From contig NZ_CP100604.1 of assembly GCF_031202265.1 (NCBI RefSeq), positions 3,268,501-3,332,500 on the forward strand: DNA of 64,000 nucleotides, in the 5' to 3' direction. The notes under the pieces were generated by a model, which worked only from the letters and a program-made list of their open reading frames with translations, was not told the origin of the DNA and searched no databases. How positions within the stretch are numbered: position 1 is the first letter of the stretch; every line of letters starts with the position of its first letter. This DNA comes from Bradyrhizobium sp. Ash2021. Lineage in GTDB: Bacteria > Pseudomonadota > Alphaproteobacteria > Rhizobiales > Xanthobacteraceae. Below are positions 3,902 through 24,021 of this stretch, in pieces. The translations under genes and the position numbers were made by a program.

Positions 3902-3925
3902 CAGAGGGAACTGATGGCTGAATTA

Positions 3926-3995: not shown

Positions 3996-4048
3996 CCGGC
4001 GACCTTGATGGGATGATCGGGAAAACCAAAACAGGGGGAAACGGCGCG

Positions 4049-5050: not shown

Positions 5051-5076
5051 GGTCGTGGAATGAATTGCAATTAAGT

Positions 5077-5163
5077 CGTCATGCCCGGGCTTGTCCCGGG
5101 CATCCACGTCTTTCTTGATGCCGAGGCAAGACGTGGATGGCCGGGACAAGCCCGGCCATGACG
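5077..5163. repeat. GTCATGCCCGGGC-type palindromic repeat, copy 2
   Basis: A near-perfect long palindrome: CGTCATGCCCGGGCTTGTCC .. ACGTCTT..AAGACGT .. GGACAAGCCCGGCCATGACG. It fills most of the gap between the binding protein and DctQ, where an RNA hairpin would protect the upstream transcript from 3' decay. Confidence 0.8.
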
Positions 5164-5191
5164 AGGGAATACCAACCGCTCAGGAATTTTG

Positions 5192-7110: not shown

Positions 7111-7111
7111 T

Positions 7112-7240
7112 CGTCGTCCCGGGCAAGCGAAGCGCGACCCGGGACCCATACCGCGTTGTGCTCTCGATGAGGCAAGGCCGACGCCTTCCGTAACAACCAA
7201 GACCCTGTGGTTATGGGTCCCTGCTTTCGCAGGGACGACG
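7112..7240. repeat. CGTCGTCCCGGGC-type palindromic repeat between convergent genes
   Basis: Ends CGTCGTCCCGGGCAAGCGAA and TTTCGCAGGGACGACG with inner arms GGGACCCATA..TATGGGTCCC-like. It sits between the 3' ends of dctM and the minus-strand phosphatase, where it could serve as a bidirectional 3'-end structure. Confidence 0.65.
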
Positions 7241-7246
7241 ATGGGG

Positions 7247-7828: not shown

Positions 7829-8628
7829 TTCGATTTGCTGGTGAATTTCTTCACCGCCGCACGAAACTCGTCGGTGTTCATGGCGTCGATGATCTTCGCT
7901 TCTTCGGCGTCGAGTTGCTGTTTGGTCGGGGTAACGCAGGCCTGGTACACCAGTGATTTGGTGCCGCTGATGGCGGCCGGCGGATTCTGGGCGAGCCGTT
8001 CGGCGAATTGCCGGGTCGCCGCTTTCAGTTCCACCGCCGGAACGATTTTGGCGACAAGACCCCAATCAAGCGCCTGCTGCGCGGAAAAACTGTCCTCCGC
8101 CAGAAATATCTGCAACGCGCGGCGGACGCCGACGGTGCCGACCATGCCGACCGTGCTGCCGCCGTCCGGGGAGACGCCGATCTTGGCGTAGGCCGGCGTA
8201 AAGCGGGCGTCGTCGGCGGCGATGCAGAGGTCGGTGACGAAGGCCAGCCCCATGCCCGCGCCGGCGGCGGAACCGTGAACGCTGGACAGCACGATCTTCG
8301 GCATCCGGCGCACGGTCTCGATAAACGCGTGATAGTGTTTCAGCAATTCCCCGACCACCGGAGCGATGGTGTCCGCGGCCGCGGCGGCGCCGATGGTTTG
8401 CAGATCGCCGCCGGCCGAGAACGCCCGGCCTGTGCCCTCGATGACCAGCACGCGGACATCGCCATTGGCCTCGACCTCGAGGCCCAGCTGTTCGAGCTTT
8501 TTCGCGATAGACAGATCGATCGAGTTGAAGGCGGCGGGCCGGTTGAGCGTGATGGTCGCAATCGGGCCTTCGACCCTGAGCAGCGCCGGATCGTCGGCAG
8601 GGGCGGTGGTAGGAGCGGGTGCGGGCAT
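7825..8628 (-). CDS. Enoyl-CoA hydratase/isomerase (crotonase) family protein, isomerase-like active site
   Basis: 267 residues, crotonase fold, acting on CoA thioesters in the cytoplasm. The oxyanion-hole segments are present (GRAFSAGGDL and VHGSAAGAGMGLA). The two catalytic glutamates of true hydratases are not: the region reads FTPAYAKIGVSPDGGST, where the single acid is the aspartate of SPDGG, as in PaaG-type enoyl-CoA isomerases. A double-bond isomerase is therefore more likely than a hydratase. ATG 8628 is preceded by CCGGAGGCC; a longer in-frame start at 8820 adds non-homologous sequence. Coupled to the phosphatase downstream. Confidence 0.85.
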   Translation of the reverse strand: MPAPAPTTAPADDPALLRVEGPIATITLNRPAAFNSIDLSIAKKLEQLGLEVEANGDVRVLVIEGTGRAFSAGGDLQTIGAAAAADTIAPVVGELLKHYHAFIETVRRMPKIVLSSVHGSAAGAGMGLAFVTDLCIAADDARFTPAYAKIGVSPDGGSTVGMVGTVGVRRALQIFLAEDSFSAQQALDWGLVAKIVPAVELKAATRQFAERLAQNPPAAISGTKSLVYQACVTPTKQQLDAEEAKIIDAMNTDEFRAAVKKFTSKSK

Positions 8629-8919
8629 TGGCAGGCCTCCGGTCGGAGCGGTCGCGGATCCTCTGGATAGCGGGGCATTTAAATAGCAGAAGGGAAGGGG
8701 TGACAATCCCCGGCCAAGTCTGCAAAATGCGGCCTGACCTTCCTCCTGGGCAAGGACGCTCTTGCGCATCCCTGGACCATGAGGCCAAATAAAGCCCGCC
8801 ATCGTTCGGGACGCGGACACGAGCGCCGCTCCTTAGAACGATGAGGCGAGCAAGCCAAAATCGGCAGAGAGAGGAGACGACATGGGTCATTCCTGTGCGC
8901 TTGCAATTGGGTTGTCGCG
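8629..8919. other. Divergent intergenic region
   Basis: About 290 bp between the crotonase (minus) and the ferredoxin reductase (plus). I see no convincing gene. AGAGAGGAGACGACATGGG near 8868-8885 looks like a leader with a ribosome-binding site, but the reductase start at 8920 fits the homologous N-terminus better. Confidence 0.4.
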
Positions 8920-10140
8920 ATGACGCAAGGACCCGTCCTTATCGTCGGCGCCGGCCACGCCGGCTTTCAGCTCGCGGCCTCGTTGCGCCAACATGGTTTT
9001 GGCGAGCGCATCGCGCTCATCAACGACGAGGGCCATCTGCCGTATCAGCGGCCGCCTTTGTCGAAGGCCTATCTCAAGGGCGAAGGCCGTCCCGACAGCC
9101 TGATGTTCCGGCCGGACAAATTTTATCACGACCAGAACATCGATCTGATCTCCGATCGCGCGGTGTCGATCGATCGTGTCAGGCGGAAGCTGTTGCTCGC
9201 CTCCGGTGCGTCGCTCGATTACTGGCGTCTGGTGCTGGCCACCGGCGCGCGCAATCGCCTGCTCGATATCCCCAATGCCAATCTGGAAGCCGTGCGCTAT
9301 CTACGGATATTGGACGAAAGCGAGGCGTTGCGGCAGCGGATCAGTTCGGGCCAGCGCGTCGTCGTGATCGGCGCCGGCTTCATCGGGCTGGAATTCGCCG
9401 CGACCGCGCGCGCAAAAGGCCTTGAAGTCGATGTCATCGAACTCGGCACCCGCGTGATGGCGCGCGCGGTGACCGCGGAGATTTCGGAATTCTTCCAACA
9501 AAGGCATACGGTGGCGGGCATTCGCATCCATCTCGGCGTGCAGGTCACCAGCATCGAGGCCGAGGGCGGTAAGGTCACCGGCGTCAGCCTCAGCGACGGC
9601 CGGCACATCCCGGCCGACCTCATCGTGGTCGGCGTCGGCGTTTTGCCCAATGTCGAGCTTGCTGCGGAGGCCGGATTGCCTGTCGCGTCAGGGATTATCG
9701 TCGACGAGCACCTGCTGACCGCGGATCCGAACATCTCGGCCATTGGCGATTGCGCGTTGTATGCGAGCCCACGGTTCGGCGCGTCGCTGCGGCTTGAGTC
9801 CGTGCAGAACGCCACCGATCACGCGCGCTGCGTCGCGGCTCGGCTGACCGGTGATGCCAAGGCCTATGACGGCCTGCCGTGGTTCTGGAGCGATCAGGGC
9901 CCCGACAAGCTGCAGATCGCCGGTCTGACCACCGGCTACGACCGCGTGGTGGTGCGGGGCGATCGCGCGCAGGGCGCGTTCTCGGCCTTCTGTTACAAAT
10001 CCGGGCAACTCGTCGGCATCGAGTCCGTCAACCGCGCCGGCGATCACATGTTCGGCCGGCGCCTGCTCGCCGCCAACGGCTCGATCACGCCGGAGCAGGC
10101 CGCCGATACCGGCTTCGATCTGAAGCATGCGCTGACTTAA
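8920..10140 (+). CDS. FAD-dependent ferredoxin/rhodocoxin reductase family (NAD(P)H-dependent)
   Basis: 406 residues, the size of putidaredoxin/rhodocoxin reductases. The FAD dinucleotide motif is VLIVGAGHAGFQLA (residues 6-19), the NAD(P)H motif VVVIGAGFIGLEFA (about 147-160), and ISAIGDCALY marks the second FAD contact; a reductase C-terminal domain follows. Such enzymes pass electrons to a [2Fe-2S] ferredoxin that serves a P450 or dioxygenase. No ferredoxin lies next to it. A class I P450 is encoded 18 kb away (28430-29662), so pairing is possible but unproven. ATG 8920 places the FAD motif at the usual distance. Confidence 0.88.
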   Translation: MTQGPVLIVGAGHAGFQLAASLRQHGFGERIALINDEGHLPYQRPPLSKAYLKGEGRPDSLMFRPDKFYHDQNIDLISDRAVSIDRVRRKLLLASGASLDYWRLVLATGARNRLLDIPNANLEAVRYLRILDESEALRQRISSGQRVVVIGAGFIGLEFAATARAKGLEVDVIELGTRVMARAVTAEISEFFQQRHTVAGIRIHLGVQVTSIEAEGGKVTGVSLSDGRHIPADLIVVGVGVLPNVELAAEAGLPVASGIIVDEHLLTADPNISAIGDCALYASPRFGASLRLESVQNATDHARCVAARLTGDAKAYDGLPWFWSDQGPDKLQIAGLTTGYDRVVVRGDRAQGAFSAFCYKSGQLVGIESVNRAGDHMFGRRLLAANGSITPEQAADTGFDLKHALT

Positions 10141-10238
10141 GTTGCGCCCGCTTCCACTTGCATCCGTTGGTCATTTCGGCAACGCTATCGACTCAAGACC
10201 CGTCAAAGATGTCTCAGGCGGCCATCTGGGAGGGTATC

Positions 10239-11225
10239 ATGCCGGTCTGGACACGCTGTCTCACGCTATCGGCGGCATTGATCGTTGCAGCCGTAGTCGC
10301 AGGCCCGGCTTCGGCCCAGATCAAGCTGAAATGGGCGCATGTCTACGAGATTACCGAGCCCTTCCACACTGAAGCGTTGTGGGCGGCCGGCGAAATCAAG
10401 AAGCGCACCAAGGGCAAATACGACATCGAGGTGTTTCCGCTCTCGCAGCTCGGCAACGAGAACCAGATCAACGAAGGGCTCGGCCTCGGCACCATCGATC
10501 TGATCTACACCGGCGTGACTTTTGCGGCTGCGACCTACAAGCCGCTCGGTATCAGCGGCGCTCCGTTCATGCTGCGCGATTTCGAGCACTGGAAGGCCTA
10601 TCGCGATAGCAAGCTGTTCCAGGATCTGGCCAGCGGTTACGAGGACAAGACCAGGCACAAGATCGTCGCGTTCACCTACTACGGCCTGCGTCAACTCACC
10701 GCCAACAGGCCGATCATGAAGCCTGAGGACATGCAGGGCATGAAGCTGCGGGTGCCGCCGGCGCCGCTGTTTTTGATGTTCACCAAATCTGTCGGCGCCA
10801 GTGCGACGCCGATCGCATTCGCGGAAGTCTACCGCGCCCTGCAGCAGGGCACAGTCGACGGCGAGGAAAATCCGATGCCGACGATCATGGCCAAGAAATT
10901 CTATGAAGTGCAAAGCCATCTCATTCTGACCGGCCACATCATGGAATCGATGCTGACGGTGGTCGGCAACCATGTCTGGAGCAAGCTGACGCCGGATGAG
11001 CGAAAGATTTTTGCGGAGGTGCTGAAGGAAGCCGCATCGCGAGCGACGGACGCAATCGAGGCCTCCGAGCGGGTGCTTGCCGTCGAGTTCAAGGGGCTCG
11101 GCATGACCGTGGTCGTGCCCGACCGCGAAGCCTTCCGCAAGGCGGCGATCCCGCTGCACAACGATCCATCCGCCGGCGCCGGCTGGAGCCGGGCGCAATA
11201 CGACGAATTGCAAGCGCTGAAGTGA
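10239..11225 (+). CDS. Orphan TRAP transporter solute-binding protein, DctP family
   Basis: 328 residues; signal peptide 1 to about 23 (ending GPASA) followed by QIKLKWAHVYE. ATG 10239 follows GGGAGGG at 10228. MQGMKLRVPPAP carries the expected ligand-binding arginine, and FAEVYRALQQGTVDGEENP is the conserved C-domain motif. It differs clearly from the two paralogues at 2747 and 4049. No DctQ/DctM genes accompany it, so it must borrow a permease or act as a sensor receptor. The flanking genes (reductase, ribokinase) give no firm ligand. Confidence 0.9.
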   Translation: MPVWTRCLTLSAALIVAAVVAGPASAQIKLKWAHVYEITEPFHTEALWAAGEIKKRTKGKYDIEVFPLSQLGNENQINEGLGLGTIDLIYTGVTFAAATYKPLGISGAPFMLRDFEHWKAYRDSKLFQDLASGYEDKTRHKIVAFTYYGLRQLTANRPIMKPEDMQGMKLRVPPAPLFLMFTKSVGASATPIAFAEVYRALQQGTVDGEENPMPTIMAKKFYEVQSHLILTGHIMESMLTVVGNHVWSKLTPDERKIFAEVLKEAASRATDAIEASERVLAVEFKGLGMTVVVPDREAFRKAAIPLHNDPSAGAGWSRAQYDELQALK

Positions 11226-11300: not shown

Positions 11301-12236
11301 CTACAGCGGCGCTTCGGGACGACCGGCGGAGATGATTGCCGCAACTTCCGCGGCCGTCGGCATCGACGGCGCGGCGCCCATCCGCCGCACGCAGATCGAG
11401 GCGGCGACGTTGGCGTAGTCGAGCGCTTCGTCGATCGTCCTCCCGCTTGCAAGCTGCGCCGCCAGCGCGCCGACGAAGCAATCGCCGGCGCCGGTGGTGT
11501 CGACGGCTTTGACTTGATGGCCCGGAACGAGCAGCGATTGGCCCTCGATCAGCGCCAGCACGCCGCGTTTGCCGAGCGTCACGCAGATCGTTCTGCCAAG
11601 GTTTGCCGGCAGCCGGCGCGCCGCCTCGACGAAGCGCGCGGGCTCGTCGCTGTCGCGCAGCTCGGTTTTGGTGAGAAGGCCAAGCTCGGTTTCATTGAGA
11701 ATGAGAATATCGACGAGATCGAGTAACTCAGTGCCGAATTCGACCGCCGGCGCCGGATTGAGAATCGTGGTCGCGCCCGCGGCCCGCGCCCGCTTGAAGA
11801 ACGCGCTAACGGTCGCTAGCGGGATTTCAAACTGGCTCACCGCGATGTCGCCCTTGGCGAGCACCGGTGCGGCGATATCCTCGGCACTCACCAACCCATT
11901 GGCGCCGGGCACGACCACAATGGTGTTGTCGGCTTTCGCGATGGTAATGACAGCCGTTCCGCTGTGCGCCTCGGCCGTGTCCTTGACGAAGGAGATGTCG
12001 ACATCCTGCGCGGCGAGGAACGCCTTCAACTCCCGTCCGAACGCATCGGTGCCGACCCGGCCGATCAGCGTTGTCGGCGCGCCCAGTTTGGCCGCGGATA
12101 CCGCCTGGTTGGCGCCCTTGCCGCCGGGAAAATACAGCACGGCCTTGCCGGCGACGGTCTCGCCGATCCGGGGATGCCGGTCGGCCGTCGCCACCACATC
12201 CATGTTGATGCTGCCGGCGACGAAAACCCGCGCCAT
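11301..12236 (-). CDS. rbsK: Ribokinase (PfkB family)
   Basis: 311 residues. It phosphorylates ribose or a related sugar with ATP. Diagnostic features are the N-terminal VFVAGSINMD, GGKGANQAVSAAKLGA near residue 41, and VDTTGAGDCFVGAL near 250, which carries the anion-hole glycines and catalytic aspartate. ATG 12236 gives the standard N-terminus; the longer frame would overlap the upstream kinase. It lies 10 bp after a second PfkB kinase on the same strand, making a two-kinase operon with no sugar transporter. Ribokinase is the best call, but other furanose substrates such as deoxyribose or nucleosides cannot be excluded. Confidence 0.82.
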   Translation of the reverse strand: MARVFVAGSINMDVVATADRHPRIGETVAGKAVLYFPGGKGANQAVSAAKLGAPTTLIGRVGTDAFGRELKAFLAAQDVDISFVKDTAEAHSGTAVITIAKADNTIVVVPGANGLVSAEDIAAPVLAKGDIAVSQFEIPLATVSAFFKRARAAGATTILNPAPAVEFGTELLDLVDILILNETELGLLTKTELRDSDEPARFVEAARRLPANLGRTICVTLGKRGVLALIEGQSLLVPGHQVKAVDTTGAGDCFVGALAAQLASGRTIDEALDYANVAASICVRRMGAAPSMPTAAEVAAIISAGRPEAPL

Positions 12237-12246
12237 GACTGCCCGC

Positions 12247-13158
12247 CTAATCCCAGAACTCCTTCTTGCTTCCGATTTGAAACTCCTGCTTGACCGTCTC
12301 GATATCGGCCAGCGTCGGCAGTCCGGCCTCATTGCCGAGCTTTTGAATCTTGTAAGTCGAGGCCGCGCGCGCAAACTCGAAATGGTCCTTCCAGCCTTTG
12401 CCGGGACTGGCGAGATAGGAATAGATGTAGGCGCCATGGAATACGTCACCCGCGCCGTTGGTGTCGAGCACGCGATCGGGCGCGATCGGAAGCGCGGGCA
12501 AGGTGCGAACCGCCCCCGCCTCGTCATACCAGAGCAGGCCTTTTTCCCCCATGGTCACGCCGCCGACGCGGCAGCCGCGGCTCTTGAGATAATCCAGCAT
12601 CTTTTCCGGGGTCAGGTCCATCTGCTCGCACAGCCGCTCGGCGACGATGGCGACATCGATGAACTCCAGCAGCTCGTGTGTGTTGGTGCGCAGCCCGCCG
12701 CCGTCGAGCGAGGTCAAAATTCCATCCTCACGGCATAGCCTGGCATAGTGGATCGCAGCGTCGGGCTGGTGGCCGTCGACATGCAGGGCTCGGCAACCCT
12801 TCAGGTTCAGCATCGGAAAGGGATGGATGTGATCGTCGTCGCGGCAGCGCACGATGGCACGCTTGCCGTCCTTCGGCATGATGAAGGACAGCGACGAGGA
12901 GTTGACCTTGCGCGGGTGGATCGAGATCCCGTATTTCGCGCTCATATCCCAGAACATCCGCCCCAGCCAGTCATTGGCGACGGTGGCGACGAGGTCCGGC
13001 ACGATACCGAGCTTGGCGCAGCAGAACGCGGCCGTGACGGCGTTGCCGCCGAAGGAAACCGCGTAAGCGGACGCCACATGTTTCTCGTCGCCGGTCGGCA
13101 TGTGGTCGGTGATGAAGGTAACGTCGATATAAGTCTGTCCGATGAAGAGAGCCTGCAT
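12247..13158 (-). CDS. PfkB-family carbohydrate kinase
   Basis: 303 residues. An ATP-dependent sugar kinase: N-terminal LFIGQTYIDVTF, substrate region VSFGGNAVTAAFCCAKLG, and C-terminal LDTNGAGDVFHGAY with the catalytic aspartate. It differs from the adjacent ribokinase throughout, so it is not a recent duplicate and probably has a separate substrate. Members with FGGNAVTAA and ILTSLDGGGLR motifs are usually annotated only as PfkB or sugar kinases. The ATG at 13158 is the first start in the frame. First gene of the two-gene operon. Confidence 0.82.
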   Translation of the reverse strand: MQALFIGQTYIDVTFITDHMPTGDEKHVASAYAVSFGGNAVTAAFCCAKLGIVPDLVATVANDWLGRMFWDMSAKYGISIHPRKVNSSSLSFIMPKDGKRAIVRCRDDDHIHPFPMLNLKGCRALHVDGHQPDAAIHYARLCREDGILTSLDGGGLRTNTHELLEFIDVAIVAERLCEQMDLTPEKMLDYLKSRGCRVGGVTMGEKGLLWYDEAGAVRTLPALPIAPDRVLDTNGAGDVFHGAYIYSYLASPGKGWKDHFEFARAASTYKIQKLGNEAGLPTLADIETVKQEFQIGSKKEFWD

Positions 13159-13449: not shown

Positions 13450-14307
13450 GTGATTACCGGGCTTGATCATGTCGTCGTCCTGGTCGGGGACATCGCAGCC
13501 GGCGAAGCGGCGTATCAGACGCTGTTCGCGCGGCAGCCTTCCTGGCGCAACAGCGGCGACGGCGCCGAGCGCGTGCTGTTCACGCTGGACAACATGACGC
13601 TGGAGCTGATGGCGCCGAGCGGCGAGGGGGCGCCTGCGGACCGGATCCGCACGGTGCTGGCGGCGCAAGGCGAGGGGCTGGCGAGCCTTTGCTTCCGCAC
13701 CGGCGACATCGCGAAAATGCACCGCCGGCTCGACCGGCTGACGCTGAAGCCGGAACCGGTCTCCGAGGTCGAGAGCCACGACTTGATTTCGGGCGCGACC
13801 TTGTCGTGGAAGCGCACCCGCGCCGCGACCGATGCAACGCGCGGCGTCCGGCTGTTCTTCCTCGAGCGTTCGAAGGAGCGCCCGCTCTCGGTGCGGACCG
13901 CGCCCGCATCGATCACCGCGATGGACCACGTCGTGGTCTCGACGGGCGATCCGGAACGCGCCGCCGCACTGTATGGCGCGCGGCTCGGGCTCGACATGGC
14001 GCTCGACCGTTCGCATCCGGACTGGGGCCGGCTGATGTTTTTCCGCTGCGGCGATCTCGTCGTCGAGGTGACGCACCGGCCGCGCAAGCCTGGCGACAAG
14101 CCAACGGACACGGCGCAGGACCGGCTTCGCGGCATCTGCTGGCGCGTCGCCGATATCGACGCGACCCGGGCGCGGCTTGCCGCCGACGGCGTCGATGTCT
14201 CGGAGGTCCGCACCGGCCGCAAGCCGGGGACGCGGGTCATGACCGTGCGCAGCGGCACCTGCGGCGTGCCGACGCTGCTGGTGCAGCCGTCGGCGGGACG
14301 GGAGTGA
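13450..14307 (+). CDS. VOC/glyoxalase-like domain protein
   Basis: 285 residues, two vicinal-oxygen-chelate modules. The first starts ITGLDHVVVLVGDI (residue 2) and matches the Glyoxalase_3-like group; the second starts AMDHVVVSTGDPERAAALYG (about 157) with FRCGDLVVEV and a terminal GVPTLLVQP strand. VOC proteins bind a divalent metal and include lyases, dioxygenases and resistance proteins; the substrate cannot be read from sequence. The GTG start fits homology with the first beta strand. Followed by a palindromic repeat and a TetR gene on the same strand. Confidence 0.8.
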   Translation: MITGLDHVVVLVGDIAAGEAAYQTLFARQPSWRNSGDGAERVLFTLDNMTLELMAPSGEGAPADRIRTVLAAQGEGLASLCFRTGDIAKMHRRLDRLTLKPEPVSEVESHDLISGATLSWKRTRAATDATRGVRLFFLERSKERPLSVRTAPASITAMDHVVVSTGDPERAAALYGARLGLDMALDRSHPDWGRLMFFRCGDLVVEVTHRPRKPGDKPTDTAQDRLRGICWRVADIDATRARLAADGVDVSEVRTGRKPGTRVMTVRSGTCGVPTLLVQPSAGRE

Positions 14308-14461: not shown

Positions 14462-15241
14462 ATGGAGCATGATTCATTCTCAAATGCCGCCATGCGTGCT
14501 ACATCCAGTCTGACATCACCCGGGCGAGACGATTTGGCCAAGGCAAAGCGAGTTCTGAAATGGCAACGTGACCCCGAGGGCATGCGGATCCGCATCCTCG
14601 AGGCCGCGAAGCAGGAATTCGCCGCGCACGGCATTGCTGGTGCGCGGGTCGACCGGATCGCGGCCAGCGCCGGCGCCAACAAGCGCATGCTGTATTATCA
14701 CGTCGGCAACAAGGAGGACCTCTATCTCGAGGTGCTCGAAGGCGCCTACGAAAAAATCCGCGCCGAGGAGCGCGGGCTCGACCTCGAACATCTCGATCCG
14801 CCCGAGGCGATCGAGCGGCTGATCGACTTCACCTGGAATTACTTCCTCCGCAATCCGGAATTCCTGGCGCTGCTCAACACTGAAAACCTGGCCAAGGCGC
14901 GCCATCTCAAGCGCTCGACTAAGGTCAAATCGATGCATTCGCCGTTCGTCGAGATGATCCGCACGGTGGTGAGGCGCGGCGTCGAAAGCGGCGATTTCCG
15001 CGTTGCGGTCGATCCGGTCCAGCTCTATATTTCGATCGCAGGCCTGTGCTTTTTCTATCTGTCGAACAGCGCCACGTTGAGCGTGATCTTCGGCCGCGAC
15101 CTCCTGAAGAAGGAGGCGCGGGACGAGCGCCTCGCGCACATGGTGGCCTTGGTGCTGGCGGCGCTGACCGGAAAATCCACCGCGGATTTCGGCAAGGACG
15201 CGGCGCCGAAGCTGCGGTCTGCGGCACAGCAGGTGGTTTGA
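14462..15241 (+). CDS. TetR/AcrR-family transcriptional regulator
   Basis: 259 residues. N-terminal HTH domain at about residues 41-90 (RILEAAKQEFAAHGIAGARVD then ANKRMLYYHVGNKEDLY). The C-terminal ligand domain has the LYISIAGLCFFYLSNSATLSVIFGRDL pattern found in regulators related to RutR/YcdC. ATG 14462 lies at the edge of a repeat; ATG 14492 (MRATSSLTSP) is an equally plausible start. It lies about 0.95 kb upstream of the ABC-transporter/catabolic operon on the same strand, and RutR-type proteins sense pyrimidine breakdown products, so it may control that operon. That link is inference. Confidence 0.85.
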   Translation: MEHDSFSNAAMRATSSLTSPGRDDLAKAKRVLKWQRDPEGMRIRILEAAKQEFAAHGIAGARVDRIAASAGANKRMLYYHVGNKEDLYLEVLEGAYEKIRAEERGLDLEHLDPPEAIERLIDFTWNYFLRNPEFLALLNTENLAKARHLKRSTKVKSMHSPFVEMIRTVVRRGVESGDFRVAVDPVQLYISIAGLCFFYLSNSATLSVIFGRDLLKKEARDERLAHMVALVLAALTGKSTADFGKDAAPKLRSAAQQVV

Positions 15242-16038: not shown

Positions 16039-16188
16039 GAACCTGGAGTCTCAAAATTCCGTCAAGCCCGGGCATGACGGCGGAGGGTGAGGCCCGACGA
16101 GCCCCAAAATGTCACACGCAAGCCACTAGACAGTATTTATCCAACGAGTTAATTTCTCCGCGAAAAACGAAAACCGAGGGAGTAGAGC

Positions 16189-16998
16189 GTGGCCGAACAA
16201 AAGGGCCCTGGAGGCGTAGCGAAAGCGCTGAACGCGGCGTGGGTGCGGCCGTTTCTGTTCCTGATTTTCATCGTGGTGGCCTGGGACCTGAGCATCCGGC
16301 TGTTCCACATTCCCGCCTATCAGATCCCGGCGCCCGGCGATGTCGTGGCGGTGCTGTGGAGCGACTGGCCGGAGCTGCTGCGGCAGGCGTGGCCCACGAC
16401 GTATGCGACGATCTGCGGCTTCCTGCTGTCGGCGTTGTTCGGCATTCCCGTGGCGATGCTGATCGCGGGCTCGAAGACGGTGGAGAGTTACGTCTATCCG
16501 CTGCTGGTGTTCTCGCAATCGGTGCCGAAGATCGCGATCGCACCCTTGTTCGTGGTCTGGTTCGGCTTCGGCATCATCCCGAAGGTGATCTCGGCGTTCC
16601 TGCTCGGATTTTTTCCGGTGGTGGTGTCGGCGGTGCAGGGGTTCAAATCGGTCGACCCCGACATGGTCGATCTTGCACGCGCTATGCAGGGCAGCCGCTT
16701 TCAGGTGTTTTGCGCGGTCAATCTGCCGCACGCGATGCCGGCGATCTTTTCCGGGCTGAAGGTGTCGGTGACGCTGGCGGTGGTCGGGGCTGTCGTCGGC
16801 GAGTTCGTCGGCTCCAATTCCGGCATCGGCTATGTGTTGCAGCGTTCGATCGGTACTTTCGATCTGCCGACGATGTTCGCAGCACTGGTGATCCTGGCAT
16901 TGCTCGGCGTCATCCTGTTCTGGATCGTCGACATGATCGAAAGTTTCGTCATTCCCTGGCATGTCAGCCAGCGCGAGGACATCATTCTTGCGGCGTGA
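16189..16998 (+). CDS. ABC transporter permease, SsuC/TauC/ThiX type
   Basis: 269 residues with about six membrane helices; inner-membrane channel of a binding-protein-dependent importer. GFKSVDPDMVDLARAMQGSRFQVF near residue 150 is the EAA-like loop that contacts the ATPase, and VVGEFVGSNSGIGYVL is typical of the nitrate/sulfonate/thiamine-precursor class. GTG 16189 follows GAGGGAG (16176-16182). First gene of an operon running to 24021. The next gene, its binding protein, is separated by a palindromic repeat. Confidence 0.9.
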   Translation: MAEQKGPGGVAKALNAAWVRPFLFLIFIVVAWDLSIRLFHIPAYQIPAPGDVVAVLWSDWPELLRQAWPTTYATICGFLLSALFGIPVAMLIAGSKTVESYVYPLLVFSQSVPKIAIAPLFVVWFGFGIIPKVISAFLLGFFPVVVSAVQGFKSVDPDMVDLARAMQGSRFQVFCAVNLPHAMPAIFSGLKVSVTLAVVGAVVGEFVGSNSGIGYVLQRSIGTFDLPTMFAALVILALLGVILFWIVDMIESFVIPWHVSQREDIILAA

Positions 16999-17016
16999 AC
17001 GAGAAGAGAAATAAGC

Positions 17017-17098
17017 CGTCATTGCGAGCGCAGCGAAGCAATCCATAGCGTCACAAGAAAGAATGGATTGCTTCGTCGCTACGCTCCTCGCAATGACG
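17017..17098. repeat. TCATTGCGAG-type palindromic repeat, copy 4 (short form, inside operon)
   Basis: CGTCATTGCGAGCGCAGCGA..AGCAATCCAT / ATGGATTGCTTCGTCGCTAC..CTCGCAATGACG. It occupies the gap between permease and binding-protein genes of one operon and so is certainly transcribed with them if they are co-transcribed. Confidence 0.85.
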
Positions 17099-17122
17099 AA
17101 CAACAAAGAAGAGGGGAGAAAT

Positions 17123-18124
17123 ATGATGATGCGTTTGCTGGCGGCGGTTTTCGCTGCACTGATCTGGACGGCGCTGGCGGTGGTGCCGGCATCGGCGGCG
17201 GACAAGGTCGTGCTGATGCTGAACTGGTACGTCTATGGCGAGCACGCGCCGTTCTATTACGGCAAGGCCAAGGGCATTTATGCCACTGAGGGCATCGATC
17301 TCGAAATCCAGGAAGGCCGTGGCTCGGCGGCGACCACGCAGGCGGTTGCGGCCAAGACCGCCGACTTCGGCTATGTCGACGTGCCCACCATGATGCGCGC
17401 GGCGATCAAGGGCGCGCCCGTGATTGCCACCGGCGTGCTGCTGCAGACCAGCCCGATGTCGGCGATGGGGTTTGTCGACAAGAACATCAGGAAGCCCGAG
17501 GACATCAAGGGCAAGACGGTCGCGATCACGCCTGCGGATTCGATGACCCAGATCTGGCCGCTGTTCCTGAAAAAGACCGGCCTGAAGGAAAGCGACTTCC
17601 AGACCGTTGCCGGCGACGGCCAGACCAAGCTCAACGCTGTCATCAACGGCCAGGCCGATCTCTTGCTCGGCTATGTCATGGACCAGTCGATGAAGATCAA
17701 GGACGCCACCGGCAAGGACGTCTATCCGATCAAATTCGCCGACTACGGCATCAACATGGTCTCCTCAGGGATCATCGCCAACACCGATTACGTCAAGGCC
17801 AACGCCGATCTGGTCAAGCGTTTCATGTCGGCGACCACGAAGGCGGTCGAAGCGGCCGAGAAGGATCCCAAGGGTGCGGCGCAGTCGATCCTCGACGCCA
17901 ATCCCAAGGGCGGCAAGATCGAAACGCTGACGCAAGGCTTTGAGCTCACGATCCCGCTCTATCGGACGCCGGAAACCAAGGCCAGGCGGCCGTTCCAGGT
18001 CACCGACCAGAACATGACCGACACGGTCAATCTGATGGTCGAATATGGCGGGCTCGATGCCAAGGCCAAGGACAATCCGAAGGCGTTTTATACCAACGAC
18101 TATCTGCCGAAGGGCGGCTCGTGA
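17123..18124 (+). CDS. ABC transporter substrate-binding protein, NMT1/THI5-like
   Basis: 333 residues. Signal peptide 1 to about 24 (ending VVPASA). The mature start (KVVLMLNWYVYGEHAPFYYG, then GIYATEGIDLEIQEG) is the NMT1/THI5 fold seen in ThiY, RutR-regulated pyrimidine and sulfonate receptors. GYVDVPTMMRAAIKGAPV follows. ATG 17123 follows GAGGGGAG; the in-frame ATG at 17063 lies inside the repeat and is not used. Ligands of this class are usually heterocycles or sulfonates, which sits oddly with the sugar-type enzymes downstream. Palindromic elements lie on both sides of the gene. Confidence 0.9.
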   Translation: MMMRLLAAVFAALIWTALAVVPASAADKVVLMLNWYVYGEHAPFYYGKAKGIYATEGIDLEIQEGRGSAATTQAVAAKTADFGYVDVPTMMRAAIKGAPVIATGVLLQTSPMSAMGFVDKNIRKPEDIKGKTVAITPADSMTQIWPLFLKKTGLKESDFQTVAGDGQTKLNAVINGQADLLLGYVMDQSMKIKDATGKDVYPIKFADYGINMVSSGIIANTDYVKANADLVKRFMSATTKAVEAAEKDPKGAAQSILDANPKGGKIETLTQGFELTIPLYRTPETKARRPFQVTDQNMTDTVNLMVEYGGLDAKAKDNPKAFYTNDYLPKGGS

Positions 18125-18141
18125 GCGCGACAAGCAGATGC

Positions 18142-18223
18142 CGTCATTCCGGGGCGATGCGAAGCATCGAACCCGGAATCTCGAGATTCCGGGTCTGGTC
18201 CTGCGGACCATCCCGGAATGACG
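18142..18223. repeat. CGTCATTCCGGGG-type palindromic repeat inside operon
   Basis: CGTCATTCCGGGGCGATGCG at the left and GGACCATCCCGGAATGACG at the right, with an inner CGGAATCTCGAGATTCCG hairpin. It fills the gap between the binding-protein and ATPase genes. Only copy of this type in the window. Confidence 0.8.
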
Positions 18224-18258
18224 GATTCGCAACACCGCTTTTCGAATGGATTTGCTGA

Positions 18259-19101
18259 ATGAGCGCAGCGACCAAACAAATCGATCAGCCGGCCGCGCAT
18301 CTGCGCCTGGTGTCCGATCGCGCCGCCAGCGGCACGGCGGGGATCACGCTCTCCGGCGTGTCGAAAACCTACCGGTCGCGCGACGGCGATGTGCCGTCGC
18401 TGCGGCCGCTCGACTTCCACATCAACGAAGGCGAGTTCTTTGTCGTGGTCGGTCCGTCCGGCTGCGGCAAGTCCACATTGCTCAAGATGATCTCCGGCCT
18501 GCTGCCGCCCTCAACCGGCGAGATCCTCGTCGAAGGCGAGCAGGTGACAAAACCGCACGGCAATGTCGGCATCGTGTTCCAGAACGCGCTGCTGCTGCCG
18601 TGGCGCAACATCCTGTCCAACGTGATGTTGCCGATCGATATGAAAAAACTGCCGCGCGAAAAATATCTGGCGCGCGCCAAGGCGCTGTTGAAACTGGTCG
18701 GGCTCGAGGGTTTTGAGAAAAAGCTGCCCTGGCAACTTTCCGGCGGCATGCAGCAGCGCGCCTCGATCTGCCGGGCGCTGGTGCACGACCCGAAAATCAT
18801 GCTGATGGACGAGCCGTTCGGCGCACTCGATGCGATGACGCGCGAGAAGATGAATGTCGAGTTGATGCGGATCCAGCGCGAGACCGGCAAGACCGTGCTC
18901 TTGATCACGCATTCCATACCGGAAGCGGTGTTCCTGGCCGACCGTGTCCTCGTCATGACCGAGCGGCCCGGCGCGATCGCGGCGATCTACGACGTGCCGC
19001 TGCCGCGGCCGCGCTCGCTCGACGCCATGGCCGATCCCGCCTTCACCGAACTGGTGCAGCGGATCCGCAAGCATTTCTTCACCCAGGGCACGCTGGATTG
19101 A
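18259..19101 (+). CDS. ABC transporter ATP-binding protein, SsuB/TauB type
   Basis: 280 residues. Walker A GPSGCGKST (about residue 71), Q-loop GIVFQNALLLPWR, signature LSGGMQQR, Walker B IMLMDEPFGALD, and H-loop LLITHS are all intact, so it should power the importer formed with the permease at 16189 and receptor at 17123. An N-terminal extension of about 33 residues precedes the first domain strand. Its stop overlaps the start of the enolase-superfamily gene by one base (TGATG), so importer and catabolic enzymes are translationally linked. Confidence 0.92.
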   Translation: MSAATKQIDQPAAHLRLVSDRAASGTAGITLSGVSKTYRSRDGDVPSLRPLDFHINEGEFFVVVGPSGCGKSTLLKMISGLLPPSTGEILVEGEQVTKPHGNVGIVFQNALLLPWRNILSNVMLPIDMKKLPREKYLARAKALLKLVGLEGFEKKLPWQLSGGMQQRASICRALVHDPKIMLMDEPFGALDAMTREKMNVELMRIQRETGKTVLLITHSIPEAVFLADRVLVMTERPGAIAAIYDVPLPRPRSLDAMADPAFTELVQRIRKHFFTQGTLD

Positions 19102-20504
19102 TGCCTTATCGCCTGTCCGTACGAGATATCGCCTTCTTCGAACGTCCGGTCAGTTTTGCCCGGCCGTTCCGCTTCGGCGCGGTAACGATCAACGCCACGC
19201 CGCAGGCGTTCGTGCGGGTCGAGATCGAGGTCGAAGGCAAGGGCACGGCCACCGGTGCCAGCGCCGAGTTGCTGGTGCCAAAATGGTTCGACAAGCGGCC
19301 GCATCTTGCGCCGGACGAAACGGTGGAAGCGTTGCGGCGCTCGCTCACGATCGCTCGCGAGCTTTATCTCGGGCGCAAGGGTTTTGAGACCGCGTTCGGC
19401 TTGCATGCGGCGTGCATCGATGCGCAGGTTGAGGCTTGCGCGCGCGAGGATATCCCGCCGCTTGCAGCGGCTTACGGCCCGGCCGAGATCGACAAGGCCA
19501 TCCTCGATGCGCTGTTGCGCTGTGTAGGCGTGAACTTCTTCGACGGCATGGCCGGAAATATCAGCGGTATCGACGCGCGTCTGTCGCGCGATTTGAACGA
19601 TGAGGAGATCGCGGGCTTCCTGGCCGGACGTCAACGGTTGGAGCGCGTCGCGATCCGGCACACCGTCGGGCTCGACGACAGGATAGAAGGCGAGGGCGGC
19701 GTTGCCGACGCAAAGGAAACCGCCGGCGCGCGGTATTTCAAGTTGAAGCTCAATGGCGATCCCGCGCATGACGCGGATCGCCTGACCGGCATCGGCAAGG
19801 AACTCGCCACGCTGCCGCATGACTACAGGGTTTCTCTGGACGCCAACGAGCAATATGCCGACCTGACGGTTCTAGGCGCGCTGGTCGAGCGGCTCGACCG
19901 CGATAGCGCGCTAAAGCCGATTGCGGCAAAACTGTTATATCTCGAACAGCCGATGCCGCGCGACGTTACCCGGCAATCGCCGCTGGGCGCGCTCGCCGGC
20001 CGCAATTTCATCATCGACGAAGCCGACGATGGCTATGACGCCTTCCCGGTGGCGCGCGCGCTCGGCTATCGCGGCATTTCCTCGAAATCGTGCAAGGGCA
20101 TCTACAAGTCGATCGTCAATGCGACCCGCGCCGCCAAATGGAGCGCGAAGGGCGAGAAGTACTTCATCACCGGCGAAGACCTGACCTGTCAGGCCGGCCT
20201 CGGCGTGCAGCAGGACCTTGCGCTGGGCGCCCTGATCGGCGTCACCCACGCCGAGCGTAACGGTCACCATTATGTCGACGGTTTCGCCGAAACGCCGGCC
20301 GGCGAAGCCGAAGCGTTCTTGTCGGCGCATCCCGATCTCTATGCCCGCGACGGCAACAAAATCCGCCTAGCGATCCACGACGGGGATCTCCTGACGGGAT
20401 CGCTGACCGCACCCGGTTTTGCCACATCCGTCCATCCGGACTGGTCCACGCTATCGCCGCTGGCGCGGCCAACAACACAAGTTTTGCAGGAGCAGATTGT
20501 ATGA
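19101..20504 (+). CDS. Enolase-superfamily enzyme (MLE/mandelate racemase-like)
   Basis: 467 residues, longer than the usual 370-400 for this group. The C-terminal TIM-barrel motifs are recognisable: YFKLKLNGD (KxK acid/base pair), VSLDANEQY and LLYLEQPMPR as metal ligands, NFIIDEADDGYDA as the third acidic position, and GISSKSCKGIYKS with the opposing lysine. That lysine pair is the MLE-subgroup arrangement. Such enzymes abstract a proton alpha to a carboxylate, giving dehydration, racemisation or cycloisomerisation; acid-sugar dehydratase is one option. ATG 19101 overlaps the ATPase stop and the next gene overlaps it by 4 bp. Substrate unknown. Confidence 0.85.
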   Translation: MPYRLSVRDIAFFERPVSFARPFRFGAVTINATPQAFVRVEIEVEGKGTATGASAELLVPKWFDKRPHLAPDETVEALRRSLTIARELYLGRKGFETAFGLHAACIDAQVEACAREDIPPLAAAYGPAEIDKAILDALLRCVGVNFFDGMAGNISGIDARLSRDLNDEEIAGFLAGRQRLERVAIRHTVGLDDRIEGEGGVADAKETAGARYFKLKLNGDPAHDADRLTGIGKELATLPHDYRVSLDANEQYADLTVLGALVERLDRDSALKPIAAKLLYLEQPMPRDVTRQSPLGALAGRNFIIDEADDGYDAFPVARALGYRGISSKSCKGIYKSIVNATRAAKWSAKGEKYFITGEDLTCQAGLGVQQDLALGALIGVTHAERNGHHYVDGFAETPAGEAEAFLSAHPDLYARDGNKIRLAIHDGDLLTGSLTAPGFATSVHPDWSTLSPLARPTTQVLQEQIV

Positions 20505-21652
20505 CCACCAAACGCCTCGGCCTGATCATGAACGGCGTCACCGGCCGGATGGGGCTCAACCAGCATCTGATCCGCTCCATCGTCGCCATCCGCGACCAGG
20601 GTGGCGTGCTGCTGTCGAACGGCGATCGCATGATGCCGGATCCGATCCTGGTCGGCCGCGACGCGGAAAAGGTGGAAGCCTTGGCCAAGCGCTTCGACGT
20701 GCAGCGCTGCACCACCGATCTCGACAAGGCGCTGGCCGACAGGAATGACACGATCTTCTTCGATGCCGCGACGACGCAGGCGCGCCCGTCGCTGCTGACC
20801 AAGGCGATCAACGCCGGCAAGCACGTTTATTGCGAGAAGCCGATCGCGACCAATCTCGACGAGGCGGTGGCCGTGCTGCGGCTTGCCAACGGCAAAGGCG
20901 TCAAGCATGGCACGGTGCAGGACAAGCTGTTTTTGCCGGGCCTGAAGAAGCTCGCCTTCCTGCGCGACTCCGGCTTCTTTGGCCGCATGCTCTCGGTGCG
21001 CGGCGAGTTCGGCTATTGGGTGTTCGAGGGCGGCTGGCAGGAAGCGCAGCGGCCGTCGTGGAATTATCGCAGCGAGGACGGCGGCGGCATCATTCTGGAC
21101 ATGGTCTGCCACTGGCGCTATGTGCTCGACAATCTGTTCGGCGAAGTCGAGAGCGTGAGCTGCCTCGGCAGCACGGATATTCCCGAACGTTTTGACGAGA
21201 AGAACAAGAAGTACACCGCGACCGCCGACGATTCCGCCTACGCCACCTTCCGCCTCAAGGGCGGCGTGATCGCGCATATCAACATGAGCTGGGTGACGCG
21301 GGTCTATCGCGACGATCTCGTTACCTTCCAGGTCGACGGCACCCACGGCTCGGCGGTGGCGGGCCTCACCGATTGCGTCATTCAGGCGCGACAGGCGACG
21401 CCGCGGCCGGTATGGAATCCGGACGAAAAGCGCACACACGATTTCTACGGCGACTGGCAAAAGCTTCCCGAAAACGTCGTCTACGACAACGGATTCAAGG
21501 AGCAGTGGGAAATGTTCATTCGCCATGTCTGCGAGGACGCGCCCTACAAATACACGCTGCTGGAAGGCGCCAAGGGCGTGCAGCTCGCCGAGTGCGCGCT
21601 GCAGAGCTGGAAGGAGCGCCGCTGGATCGACGTCGCTCCGATCAAGGTGTGA
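20501..21652 (+). CDS. Gfo/Idh/MocA-family oxidoreductase
   Basis: 383 residues. Nucleotide-binding N-terminus (GLIMNGVTGRMG), GKHVYCEKPIATN with the family's EKP lysine near residue 113, and a C-terminal substrate domain containing EDGGGIILDMVCHWRYVLDNLFG with the histidine/aspartate catalytic region. Members are NAD(P)-dependent dehydrogenases of sugars, inositols and sugar acids. Start ATG overlaps the upstream stop (ATGA, 20501-20504). It is placed between an enolase-type enzyme and a DapA-like protein, so it most likely oxidises or reduces an intermediate of the same pathway. Confidence 0.88.
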   Translation: MTTKRLGLIMNGVTGRMGLNQHLIRSIVAIRDQGGVLLSNGDRMMPDPILVGRDAEKVEALAKRFDVQRCTTDLDKALADRNDTIFFDAATTQARPSLLTKAINAGKHVYCEKPIATNLDEAVAVLRLANGKGVKHGTVQDKLFLPGLKKLAFLRDSGFFGRMLSVRGEFGYWVFEGGWQEAQRPSWNYRSEDGGGIILDMVCHWRYVLDNLFGEVESVSCLGSTDIPERFDEKNKKYTATADDSAYATFRLKGGVIAHINMSWVTRVYRDDLVTFQVDGTHGSAVAGLTDCVIQARQATPRPVWNPDEKRTHDFYGDWQKLPENVVYDNGFKEQWEMFIRHVCEDAPYKYTLLEGAKGVQLAECALQSWKERRWIDVAPIKV

Positions 21653-21662
21653 GGTGAGGGCC

Positions 21663-22856
21663 ATGAACAAGCCCGTTTTGCCCGTCTCGTCGCTGTCGCT
21701 AAAACTGCCGAATGCGGATCGTTCGATCGAGACCTATCGATTGGCGGCCTCGCGGACCTTTCCGGCCAAACTTGAAGGCACGCTCAACCGCGTCGCGTTT
21801 TCCGCCGCGCATGTGGTGGCTGATCCGCTGGCCGAGTGCGATCCGTGGCTGACGGCGGCGGTCGACTGGGACCGGACGATCGCGTTCCGCGAACACGTCT
21901 GGGACTTGGGCCTCGGCGTTGCCGAAGCAATGGATACCGCGCAGCGCGGCATGGGGCTGGATTGGCCGACCTCGCTGGAACTGGTCCAGCGCTCGGTGAA
22001 GGCCGCCAAGACCAGAGGCAACGCGCTGGTGTTCTCCGGCGCCGGCACCGACCATCTCGCGGTCGAAGACGCCAAAAGTATCAACGACGTGATCCGCGCT
22101 TACGAAGAGCAGATCGCGGCGGTGGAAAAAGCCGGCGGCCGCATCATCCTGATGGCGTCGCGGGCACTGGCCAAGCTCGGCCGCAGCGCCGACGATTACG
22201 CAAAAGTCTATGACCGCGTGCTGTCGCAGGTCCGCGAGCCCGTGATCATCCACTGGCTCGGCGACATGTTCGATCCGGCGCTCAGGAATTACTGGGGCAC
22301 GTCCAGCCTCGATACCGCGATGGACATCGCGGTCGGCATCATCAATGCCAACGCCGCCAAGGTCGACGGCGTAAAAGTCTCGCTGCTCGACAAGCAGCGC
22401 GAGATCGATATGCGCCGCCGGCTCGACAAATCTGTGAAGATGTATACCGGCGACGACTTCAATTACGCCGAACTGATCGCCGGCGACGACGCGGGCTTTT
22501 CGCACGCGCTGCTCGGCATCTTCGATGCCATCGCGCCGGCGGCGTCCTATGCGCTGTCGCGGTTGGCGGCCGGCGACGAAGCGGGCTTTCACGACGTGCT
22601 GGGGCCAACGGTGCCGCTGTCACGCCACATCTTCAGGGCGCCGACGCGGTTCTACAAGACCGGCATCGTTTTTATGGCCTGGCTCAACGGCCATCAGGAC
22701 CACTTCACCATGGTTGGCGGGCAGGAGAGCACGCGCTCGACGCTGCATCTGGCCGAACTGTTTCGTCTCGCCGACAAGGCCGGCCTGCTCGCCAATCCGG
22801 AGTTGGCGACACGGCGGATGAAAACGTGGCTTTCCACCCGCGGCGTTGAATCCTGA
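21663..22856 (+). CDS. DUF993 family protein (DapA-like TIM barrel, putative aldolase)
   Basis: 397 residues. I recognise DUF993: conserved FSAAHVVADP, LDWPTSLELVQRS, VFSGAGTDHL, VIIHWLGDMFDPAL and VDGVKVSLLD. The family is uncharacterised but related to dihydrodipicolinate synthase/N-acetylneuraminate lyase barrels. The lysine of GVKVSLLDKQ aligns by context with the Schiff-base lysine in the GIK(E/D) strand of DapA. A class I retro-aldol or dehydration step on a 2-keto acid is therefore plausible, and it would follow the enolase-type enzyme logically. ATG 21663 lies 10 bp after the previous stop, behind GTGAGG. Confidence 0.82.
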   Translation: MNKPVLPVSSLSLKLPNADRSIETYRLAASRTFPAKLEGTLNRVAFSAAHVVADPLAECDPWLTAAVDWDRTIAFREHVWDLGLGVAEAMDTAQRGMGLDWPTSLELVQRSVKAAKTRGNALVFSGAGTDHLAVEDAKSINDVIRAYEEQIAAVEKAGGRIILMASRALAKLGRSADDYAKVYDRVLSQVREPVIIHWLGDMFDPALRNYWGTSSLDTAMDIAVGIINANAAKVDGVKVSLLDKQREIDMRRRLDKSVKMYTGDDFNYAELIAGDDAGFSHALLGIFDAIAPAASYALSRLAAGDEAGFHDVLGPTVPLSRHIFRAPTRFYKTGIVFMAWLNGHQDHFTMVGGQESTRSTLHLAELFRLADKAGLLANPELATRRMKTWLSTRGVES

Positions 22857-23719
22857 TGCGGGATTTTTCGGGCGATCATCGCTGGCTGTCGCTGAACACG
22901 GCGACTATCCGCAAGCAGGGCGATCTCACTGAGATCATCGACGCCTGCGCCCGCCATGGCATCCGCGCCATCGATCCCTGGCGCGACCAGATCGCAGCGA
23001 TCGGGCTCGACCGCGCTGCGCGTGCCGTGCGCGACGCCGGGCTCGAGCTGTCAGGCTATTGCCGCGGCGGCATGTTCACGGCCGACGCCGCGCACCGGAT
23101 CGCGGTGCGCGACGACAATCACCGCACGATCGATGAGGCCAAGGCACTGGGCGCACCCTGCATCGTGCTGGTCGCGGGTGGCCTGCCGCAATATTCGCGG
23201 CCCGGCAGCAGCGCCTCAAAGGATATTTTGGCGGCGCGGGCGCAGGTCCATGACGGCCTGGCCGAAATGCTGGACTACGCCAGACAGGCAAACATGCCGC
23301 TGGCGATCGAGCCGCTGCATCCGGCCTATGCCGCCGACCGCGCCTGCGTCAACACCACAAAACAGGCGCTCGATCTCTGTGACGCGCTGGACCCGCAACG
23401 ATCAGGCGCGCTCGGCGTCGCGCTTGACGTCTATCACATCTGGTGGGACCCCGAGATGCTGCCGCAGATCGCCCGCACCGGCAAGGATCGCCTGCTCGCG
23501 TTCCATGTTTGCGACTGGCTGGTGCCGACCAAGGACATCCTCAACGACCGCGGCATGATGGGCGACGGCGTCATCGACATCAAATCGGTGCGCGCGGCGG
23601 TCGAAGCGCAGGGATTTGCCGGCTATTCCGAGATCGAGATTTTTTCCAGCGATTGGTGGGGCAGGCCAATGGATGAGGTCTTGCAGATCTGCATCGAACG
23701 GCACCGGACAGTGGTTTGA
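22856..23719 (+). CDS. Sugar phosphate isomerase/epimerase family protein (AP-endonuclease-2-like TIM barrel)
   Basis: 287 residues. The expected metal-site residues appear in order: glutamate of LAIEPLHP (near 151), aspartate of VALDVYHIWWDPE, histidine of LLAFHVCDW, and glutamate of GYSEIEIFSSDWWG. The fold covers xylose-isomerase-like isomerases, epimerases and 3-keto-sugar enzymes. Start ATG overlaps the DUF993 stop by one base. Its pairing with a Gfo/Idh dehydrogenase recalls systems acting through 3-keto sugars; this is an analogy, not proof. Confidence 0.85.
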   Translation: MRDFSGDHRWLSLNTATIRKQGDLTEIIDACARHGIRAIDPWRDQIAAIGLDRAARAVRDAGLELSGYCRGGMFTADAAHRIAVRDDNHRTIDEAKALGAPCIVLVAGGLPQYSRPGSSASKDILAARAQVHDGLAEMLDYARQANMPLAIEPLHPAYAADRACVNTTKQALDLCDALDPQRSGALGVALDVYHIWWDPEMLPQIARTGKDRLLAFHVCDWLVPTKDILNDRGMMGDGVIDIKSVRAAVEAQGFAGYSEIEIFSSDWWGRPMDEVLQICIERHRTVV

Positions 23720-24021
23720 GCGGCGCGAAAGCGTTGATCGGCCACGCCGTCACGTTCCGCGCCGACCGGATCGACGCGCCGCCTCCGCTGGGGTGCAAAA
23801 AGCCGCATTACGCGATCAAGCAATATGCGCCCGACATGCTGTTTCAGGGCGGATTGACCGATCCCGGCAAGCAGGCCACGGCGCTGGGTTTTACCGACAA
23901 GACGATCCCGACAATCGAGACCGGATGCGACGGCGCCATCGATTTTCATTTCGTCAACGCCGGCACGGCGCTGTTCGGATTGAACAACCGGGTCTATCGA
24001 ATGGAAAAGAAGCCGAACTGA
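23716..24021 (+). CDS. Small hypothetical protein, possibly a truncated secreted-protein remnant
   Basis: 101 residues from a TTG that overlaps the previous stop (TTGA). Codon use (strong G/C third positions) is that of a real gene. No signal peptide or membrane helix. GHAVTFRADRIDAPPPLGC, MLFQGGLTD and FGLNNRVYRM look like the C-terminal part of small secreted proteins of Rhizobiales, which would carry an N-terminal signal sequence missing here. Either it is a genuine short last gene of the operon, or the surviving 3' part of a gene whose 5' end was lost. I cannot decide, and I know no function. Confidence 0.55.
   Translation: MSGAKALIGHAVTFRADRIDAPPPLGCKKPHYAIKQYAPDMLFQGGLTDPGKQATALGFTDKTIPTIETGCDGAIDFHFVNAGTALFGLNNRVYRMEKKPN

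Follow-up and report, generated by a model that had tools for sequence, protein, structure and literature searches.

A conserved catabolic operon of probable sugar-acid type, with a DUF993 protein and an operator-like motif, in Bradyrhizobium

The window analysed here is a stretch of 64,000 nucleotides from Bradyrhizobium sp. Ash2021 (contig NZ_CP100604.1, positions 3,268,501 to 3,332,500), and our subject is an operon on its forward strand that encodes an ATP-binding cassette (ABC) importer with an NMT1-type receptor, an MLE-type member of the enolase superfamily (the enolase below), a Gfo/Idh/MocA dehydrogenase (Gfo), a DUF993 protein and an AP_endonuc_2 TIM-barrel isomerase or epimerase (TIM), with a gene for a TetR-family regulator upstream. 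These enzymes form one functional, conserved unit, and the operon represents a genuine conserved catabolic pathway of sugar-acid type, built from known enzyme superfamilies, that we did not find described in the literature searched. A sequence-only reading of the stretch had known of no characterised pathway with this enzyme set; we likewise found none, and neither DUF993 nor PF06187 was found mentioned in the open-licence PubMed Central literature.

The locus and its enzymes

The genes from the ATPase to the isomerase are joined by overlaps or a 10-bp gap (Table 1). That the enzymes act as one unit, as had been proposed from this tight joining, was supported, and the unit is conserved. The small-protein gene that had been counted with them does not belong to the operon: it represents a fragment, truncated at its 5' end, of a longer family, and was not found in 150 other loci.

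Table 1. Features of the operon and its surroundings (positions in the window)
Feature	Position	Strand	Remarks
TetR-family regulator (TetR_N + TetR_C_29)	14462..15241	+	Pfam domains; true start may be 14582
Operator-like motif GACAGTATTTATCCAACGAGTTAATTT	16129..16155	+	27 bp, 33 bp upstream of permease start; putative
ABC importer permease (BPD_transp_1)	16189..16998	+	115.9 bits
Dispersed genome repeat, permease-receptor gap	17016..17099	+	47 own-genome matches to gap sequence, itself counted
NMT1/THI5-type periplasmic receptor	17123..18124	+	PF09084, 152.9 bits
Second dispersed repeat, palindromic, receptor-ATPase gap	18142..18223		80 matches, both strands, itself counted
ABC importer ATPase	18259..19101	+	PF00005, 118.3 bits
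Enolase superfamily, MLE-like	19098..20504	+	catalytic residues invariant in 34 sequences
Gfo/Idh/MocA dehydrogenase	20501..21652	+	close relative of structure 3oqb
DUF993, DHDPS-fold protein	21663..22856	+	invariant lysine in G-[IV]-K-[IV]-S-L-L
AP_endonuc_2 TIM-barrel isomerase/epimerase	22856..23719	+	relative of structures 3ju2 and 3qc0
101-aa gene, non-member	23716..24021	+	5'-truncated remnant of longer hypothetical protein

The enolase is too distant for a Pfam match and has no close solved structure, the solved superfamily members listed being 12-20% identical to it. It carries the signature of the MLE group (K-x-K on strand 2, metal ligands D/E/D(E) and a lysine on strand 6), with K215-x-K217, D248, E283, D307/E308 and K330 invariant in 34 rows of the alignment and the catalytic positions at the ends of the model strands.

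The DUF993 protein is a (beta/alpha)8 barrel of the dihydrodipicolinate synthase (DHDPS) type. The lysine of its GVKVSLLD segment had been put forward as a Schiff-base candidate, and it kept that standing: K239 (numbering of our alignment A2) does not vary in any of the 44 aligned rows, lies on predicted barrel strand 235-241 at the Schiff-base lysine position on the sixth strand, and aligns, in a weak sequence match, with the GIK lysine of DHDPS; a Schiff base is predicted here. Conserved residues were also found in Gfo (K113, D200 and H204) and in TIM (E152, D191, H217 and E259). The structural relatives of these three proteins (3oqb for Gfo, 4dnh for DUF993, 3ju2 and 3qc0 for TIM) were deposited as uncharacterised or under generic names, and no relevant paper on any of the four was found in the open-licence PubMed Central literature.

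Conservation of the gene set and the dependency of the enolase on DUF993

Three samples of DUF993 loci were compared. The first consists of the best 80 of 550 loci among the genome-contig matches listed, and is skewed to close relatives; the second, drawn from an order survey (297 genomes) and a phylum survey (398 genomes) with the own genus excluded, comprises 48 per-genus loci, one chosen best match per genus with second places from three genera added; the third comprises 22 plasmid loci, making 70 per-genus and plasmid loci together. Genes at the surveyed loci were labelled by how closely they resembled annotated plasmid genes and loci; the thresholds were chosen manually. The locus counts include many close relatives and some duplicated records (L064 = L159), and a family missing from a list of matches is not thereby excluded.

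DUF993 was found in 89 of the 297 order genomes and 36 of the 398 phylum genomes. Of the best 80 of the 550 loci, 79 have Gfo, 78 TIM, 68 TetR, 64 the enolase and 51 the NMT1 receptor. Among the 70 per-genus and plasmid loci, 36 combine Gfo with DUF993 (class A), and these have TIM (35/36), TetR (29/36) and the enolase (16/36) as partners, an IolO-like epimerase often being seen as well. Class B loci show differing combinations of genes for LacI, a CUT1 sugar importer, GMC, SDR, aldehyde dehydrogenase, CoA-transferase and enoyl-CoA hydratase, and sometimes a glycerate kinase. Gfo and CoA-transferase occur together in none of the 36 class A loci, and all 16 loci with the enolase among the 70 also have Gfo. 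On a Streptomyces plasmid (L126:9908-21092) the DUF993 gene directly precedes a type I polyketide synthase, and no gene labelled as belonging to the pathway lies nearby.

The order genomes were also surveyed for the enolase, at most 5 candidates being scored per genome. It is present in 43 of the 297, and 42 of these 43 carry DUF993 (Fisher p 6.6e-25; 33 of 34 with the own genus excluded), so that the set is not scattered, the outcome that the sequence-only reading had named as refuting it. The enolase is absent, conversely, from 47 of the 89 DUF993 genomes. In 31 of the 43 genomes the enolase and DUF993 are no more than 10 kb apart; the unlinked enolases were examined in 12 stretches from 11 of 12 genomes (G032 was omitted and G080 gave two). 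An IolO-like epimerase adjoins the enolase in 9 of the 12, of which 7 also have TctA; L187 has NMT1-like ABC genes instead, and L182 has no labelled importer. The dependency is thus one-way, and given that the enolase depends on DUF993 and not the reverse, the enolase would be an entry step.

Genes further upstream were considered as members and rejected. Of 81 loci, with the window counted among them, 32 have a kinase of the one and 27 a kinase of the other of two families (11301-13158), and a glyoxalase gene (13450-14307) is present in 29 of the 80 genome-contig, 1 of the 48 per-genus and none of the 22 plasmid loci, the loci concerned being Bradyrhizobium, Tardiphaga or metagenome-assembled genomes without species name by their record titles. 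The confinement of kinases and glyoxalase to this group points to synteny of the group rather than to the pathway. Upstream of the kinases (707-11225) lie an IlvD/EDD-type dehydratase, three DctP receptors and a DctM permease, possibly another organic-acid region, while at 40323-54639 genes of oligopeptide-type ABC importers flank a gamma-glutamyltranspeptidase on the minus strand. The gaps at 16999-17122 and 18125-18258 hold the two different dispersed repeats of Table 1, and the gap lengths differ among Bradyrhizobium loci.

The TetR regulator and a common operator-like motif

When the region ahead of the permease was aligned across 38 loci, the window among them, it yielded the motif CTGGACAGTATTTATCCAACGGGTTAATTT, which in the window holds the imperfect palindrome TTATCC-AACG-AGTTAA. 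With up to 3 mismatches the motif occurs once in the own genome, ahead of the permease. Of 31 Bradyrhizobium genomes, counting the own one, 30 have it exactly once and one lacks it; a reversed control never occurred. At L051, a locus without importer and enolase, it stands directly upstream of gfo. The operator-like motif before the importer is a new finding of the present analysis; we infer that the TetR protein binds there, and the operon is probably co-regulated.

The Microvirga version of the motif suggested the core TAACC-N4-GGTTA. With one mismatch allowed, this core precedes pathway genes at 27 of the 34 Bradyrhizobium-like loci. Of the 81 other class A loci, 35 have it there, whereas 29 other half-site orderings gave a mean of 1.9 and a maximum of 10; three of the 81 are Microvirga loci and thus not independent, the core having been generalised from Bradyrhizobium and Microvirga sites. 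Loci without Gfo have it in 3 of 35 cases and the unlinked enolase loci in 7 of 12, where no other ordering scored above 2; 5 of these 7 sites precede the epimerase or TctC gene. Exact core sites number 22 in 12 chosen genomes, and for 15 of them the distance to DUF993 or the enolase is at most 15 kb. The 5.2-Mb genome G100 has just two, 2.7 Mb apart, one 99 bp upstream of gfo, followed by DUF993, TctC, TctB, TctA and TIM (L200), the other 80 bp upstream of an epimerase-enolase pair (L182).

An exact site in G202 lies between GMC and aldehyde dehydrogenase genes, beside a CUT2 importer (L201:5749-9002, contig G202:C1) and about 130 kb from the DUF993 gene of that genome; this aldehyde dehydrogenase is 63% identical to that of the Paracoccus DUF993 cluster. 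At L074:5257-6960 is encoded a thiamine pyrophosphate (TPP) enzyme (784 bits for the PRK08199 subfamily, whose cut-off is 539), whose cluster is found in 17 other loci; in Burkholderiales loci it is divergent from TetR, often with an operator-like site between the two.

The RutR box is a palindrome with CC/GG half-sites, and a TetR protein with a 16-bp palindrome of this type is what the operon shares with the RutR system. Unlike that system, the operon has no pyrimidine genes, and its TetR scores 55.9 of the 368 bits required by the RutR equivalog model, on which ground identity with RutR was rejected.

Substrate, mechanism and significance

The importers at the 36 class A loci are of TTT type in 16 cases and of NMT1 type in 6, with a few sugar ABC, TRAP or MFS importers and no labelled importer at the remainder. 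Because of the TTT genes at 16 of these loci, an acid is favoured as substrate. A hydroxylated carboxylate would fit better than the glycosylated heterocycle, C-glycoside or sulfosugar that the sequence-only reading had deduced from the class of the receptor.

Our best explanation, which as a whole we consider somewhat probable, is that the operon is dedicated, under TetR control, to the catabolism of a polyhydroxylated carboxylate taken up from outside, either a sugar acid, the corresponding lactone or a closely related compound. The importer would take up the hydroxylated carboxylate, under control of the local TetR through the operator; Gfo would oxidise one hydroxyl or hemiacetal carbon; TIM, as a metal enzyme, would shift the carbonyl or epimerise beside it; and the DUF993 lysine would then form a Schiff base, the keto compound being split (or dehydrated) and the fragments draining to glycerate- or pyruvate-level metabolism. 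The enolase would serve as a peripheral entry: by abstracting the alpha proton of the acid, with epimerisation or with the opening or closing of a lactone, it would supply the core of Gfo, DUF993 and TIM with another, related substrate. In sugar-importing relatives, GMC and aldehyde dehydrogenases may first make the acid from the sugar; the two occur with sugar importers in pAO1 and G202. A glycerate outlet, at least in some branches, is suggested by glycerate kinases beside DUF993 in 10 of the 22 plasmid, 3 of the 48 per-genus and 1 of the 80 genome-contig loci, which belong to two non-homologous families, PF02595 in pAO1 (L124, an actinomycete locus) and DUF4147-MOFRL in S. meliloti (L129).

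Several observations weigh against this explanation. Sugar importers are present at some class A loci (L114, L115 and L124), which makes a neutral sugar a possible substrate. Glycerate kinase is rare in class A (4/36: L114, L117, L124 and L131), and no gene for it is found in the operon studied. The sequence match between DUF993 and DHDPS is weak (E 0.049), the GTTGE-type carboxylate-binding motif is not kept (in a weak alignment DTAQR stands there), and strand 195-200 ends in H-W at what we take to be the place of the DHDPS catalytic tyrosine; given the missing motif and the H-W, aldol cleavage by DUF993 is not assured. As for the operator, 46 of the 81 class A loci outside the Bradyrhizobium-like set lack the core at one mismatch, and 2 of the 7 sites at unlinked enolases stand only before another importer gene (L188 and L189). 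Moreover, 7 of the 22 exact sites are away from DUF993 and the enolase, 6 of these 7 showing no clear pathway module; 3 of the 12 genomes have no site, and in 7 of the 12 the reversed control pattern is commoner than the real core.

Two described loci are related to the operon. In the pAO1 sugar cluster of Paenarthrobacter nicotinovorans, a proposed oxidative xylose cluster, a Gfo (55% identical to that of the operon, and reportedly a D-xylose dehydrogenase) and a DUF993 (49%) are adjacent, as in the operon; unlike the operon, it has a CUT2-type sugar importer, GMC, aldehyde dehydrogenase and glycerate kinase, and the stretch examined has no enolase or TIM. No paper titled on this cluster was found in the open-licence PubMed Central literature. 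S. meliloti SMc04130, SMc04132 and SMc04133, the source of 3ju2 and 4dnh, include relatives of the operon's TIM and DUF993. In PMC12542648, the one open-licence PubMed Central paper found to name them, the SMc04132 and SMc04133 proteins are both lowered in a phaR mutant background, and SMc04135 is tabulated as an amino-acid or peptide ABC receptor, a point of difference from the operon.

Galactarolactone cycloisomerase is an enolase-superfamily enzyme, and the oxidative galacturonate route to which it belongs is the nearest described logic. That route comprises a dehydrogenase (Udh), a lactone isomerase (Gli), galactarolactone cycloisomerase and KdgD, as far as the parts consulted of PMC6353982 and PMC9795676 describe it, and the operon shares with it a dehydrogenase, an enolase-superfamily step and a DHDPS-type enzyme. 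It differs in that its dehydrogenase is of the Gfo/Idh type, DUF993 stands in for KdgD, a TIM isomerase is added, and the enolase is dispensable as well as too distant for a Pfam match. A route of the galactarolactone type for an aldose or uronate, in which Gfo would oxidise C1 to give a lactone, the enolase would beta-eliminate to a 2-keto-3-deoxy acid and DUF993 would act as aldolase or dehydratase, would agree with the similarity to the pAO1 Gfo beside DUF993 and with the kdgD and mandelate racemase genes that adjoin the Palleronia cluster. An obligatory middle step by the enolase, however, predicts few enolase-free DUF993 operons, whereas 47 of 89 genomes lack the enolase, and Gfo falls below every NCBIfam sugar-dehydrogenase cut-off (best IolG, 71.1 of 355 bits); we regard this route as unlikely.

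Less probable again is the logic of 3-keto-glycosides, as for levoglucosan or C-glycosides, in which Gfo would oxidise C3, TIM would eliminate the aglycone and DUF993 would work on the sugar. Some elimination and hydration enzymes of the levoglucosan route are AP_endonuc_2 proteins, and the best PDB sequence matches of Gfo include 6a3f (listed as a putative dehydrogenase), which we take to be levoglucosan dehydrogenase. A levoglucosan dehydrogenase with elimination and hydration enzymes does form such a route in the parts consulted of PMC7676230 and PMC10066097. This logic needs neither an enolase nor a Schiff-base lyase, though, and Gfo scores only 56.8 of the 650 bits of the levoglucosan dehydrogenase equivalog, so that membership in that pathway was rejected; PF19906 (the small subunit of C-deglycosidase CGDB) has 0 matches in the own genome, where the control gave no match either.

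A cyclitol or quinate-like ring acid degraded by inositol-type steps seems to us very improbable. Gfo, AP_endonuc_2 and TPP enzymes do recall the inositol toolkit, and at the DUF993-TIM locus L112, which has no Gfo, a gene beside DUF993 (9092-9916) annotated as a ThiF adenylyltransferase is shikimate-dehydrogenase-like by Pfam; against this, the TPP enzyme is present in only 14 of the 80 genome-contig, 3 of the 48 per-genus (one only 23% identical) and none of the 22 plasmid loci, and no ring hydrolase was recognised among the operon genes. Least likely of all is the heterocycle, C-glycoside or sulfosugar: the receptor does belong to the NMT1 type of thiamine-precursor import by its PF09084 match, and its PDB sequence relatives include THI5 and an N-formyl-aminopyrimidine binder, but the same enzymes occur elsewhere with TTT, TRAP, sugar ABC or MFS importers, so that receptor class was dropped as a guide to substrate, and sulfonate or sulfosugar use was rejected since the receptor falls below the cut-offs of the SsuA-family model (64.4 of 163.5 bits) and the taurine receptor (27.3 of 304.25), no desulfonating enzyme being present among the operon genes.

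A broader claim about the family can be framed, whose truth and falsity we consider evenly balanced: DUF993 would found a novel family of Schiff-base lyases, central to a catabolic network that is widespread yet undescribed. This network would have a core of oxidation, isomerisation, C-C cleavage and glycerate outlet; interchangeable entry modules, namely MLE-type enolase and epimerase for acids, and GMC, aldehyde dehydrogenase, SDR and CoA-transferase for sugars; and an acid branch in which one TetR and the operator TAACC-N4-GGTTA would unite modules even megabases apart.

The one-way dependency of the enolase separates a core step from an entry step, and three operon proteins whose relatives are solved yet functionally unassigned are tied into one pathway, so that with a regulator and an operator at hand the functions of several orphan proteins become testable together. 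The gene set recurs in many other bacteria beyond the soil bacterium in which we describe it, and the incidence of DUF993 in the order and phylum surveys suggests that a common environmental compound is probably degraded by an unmapped route.

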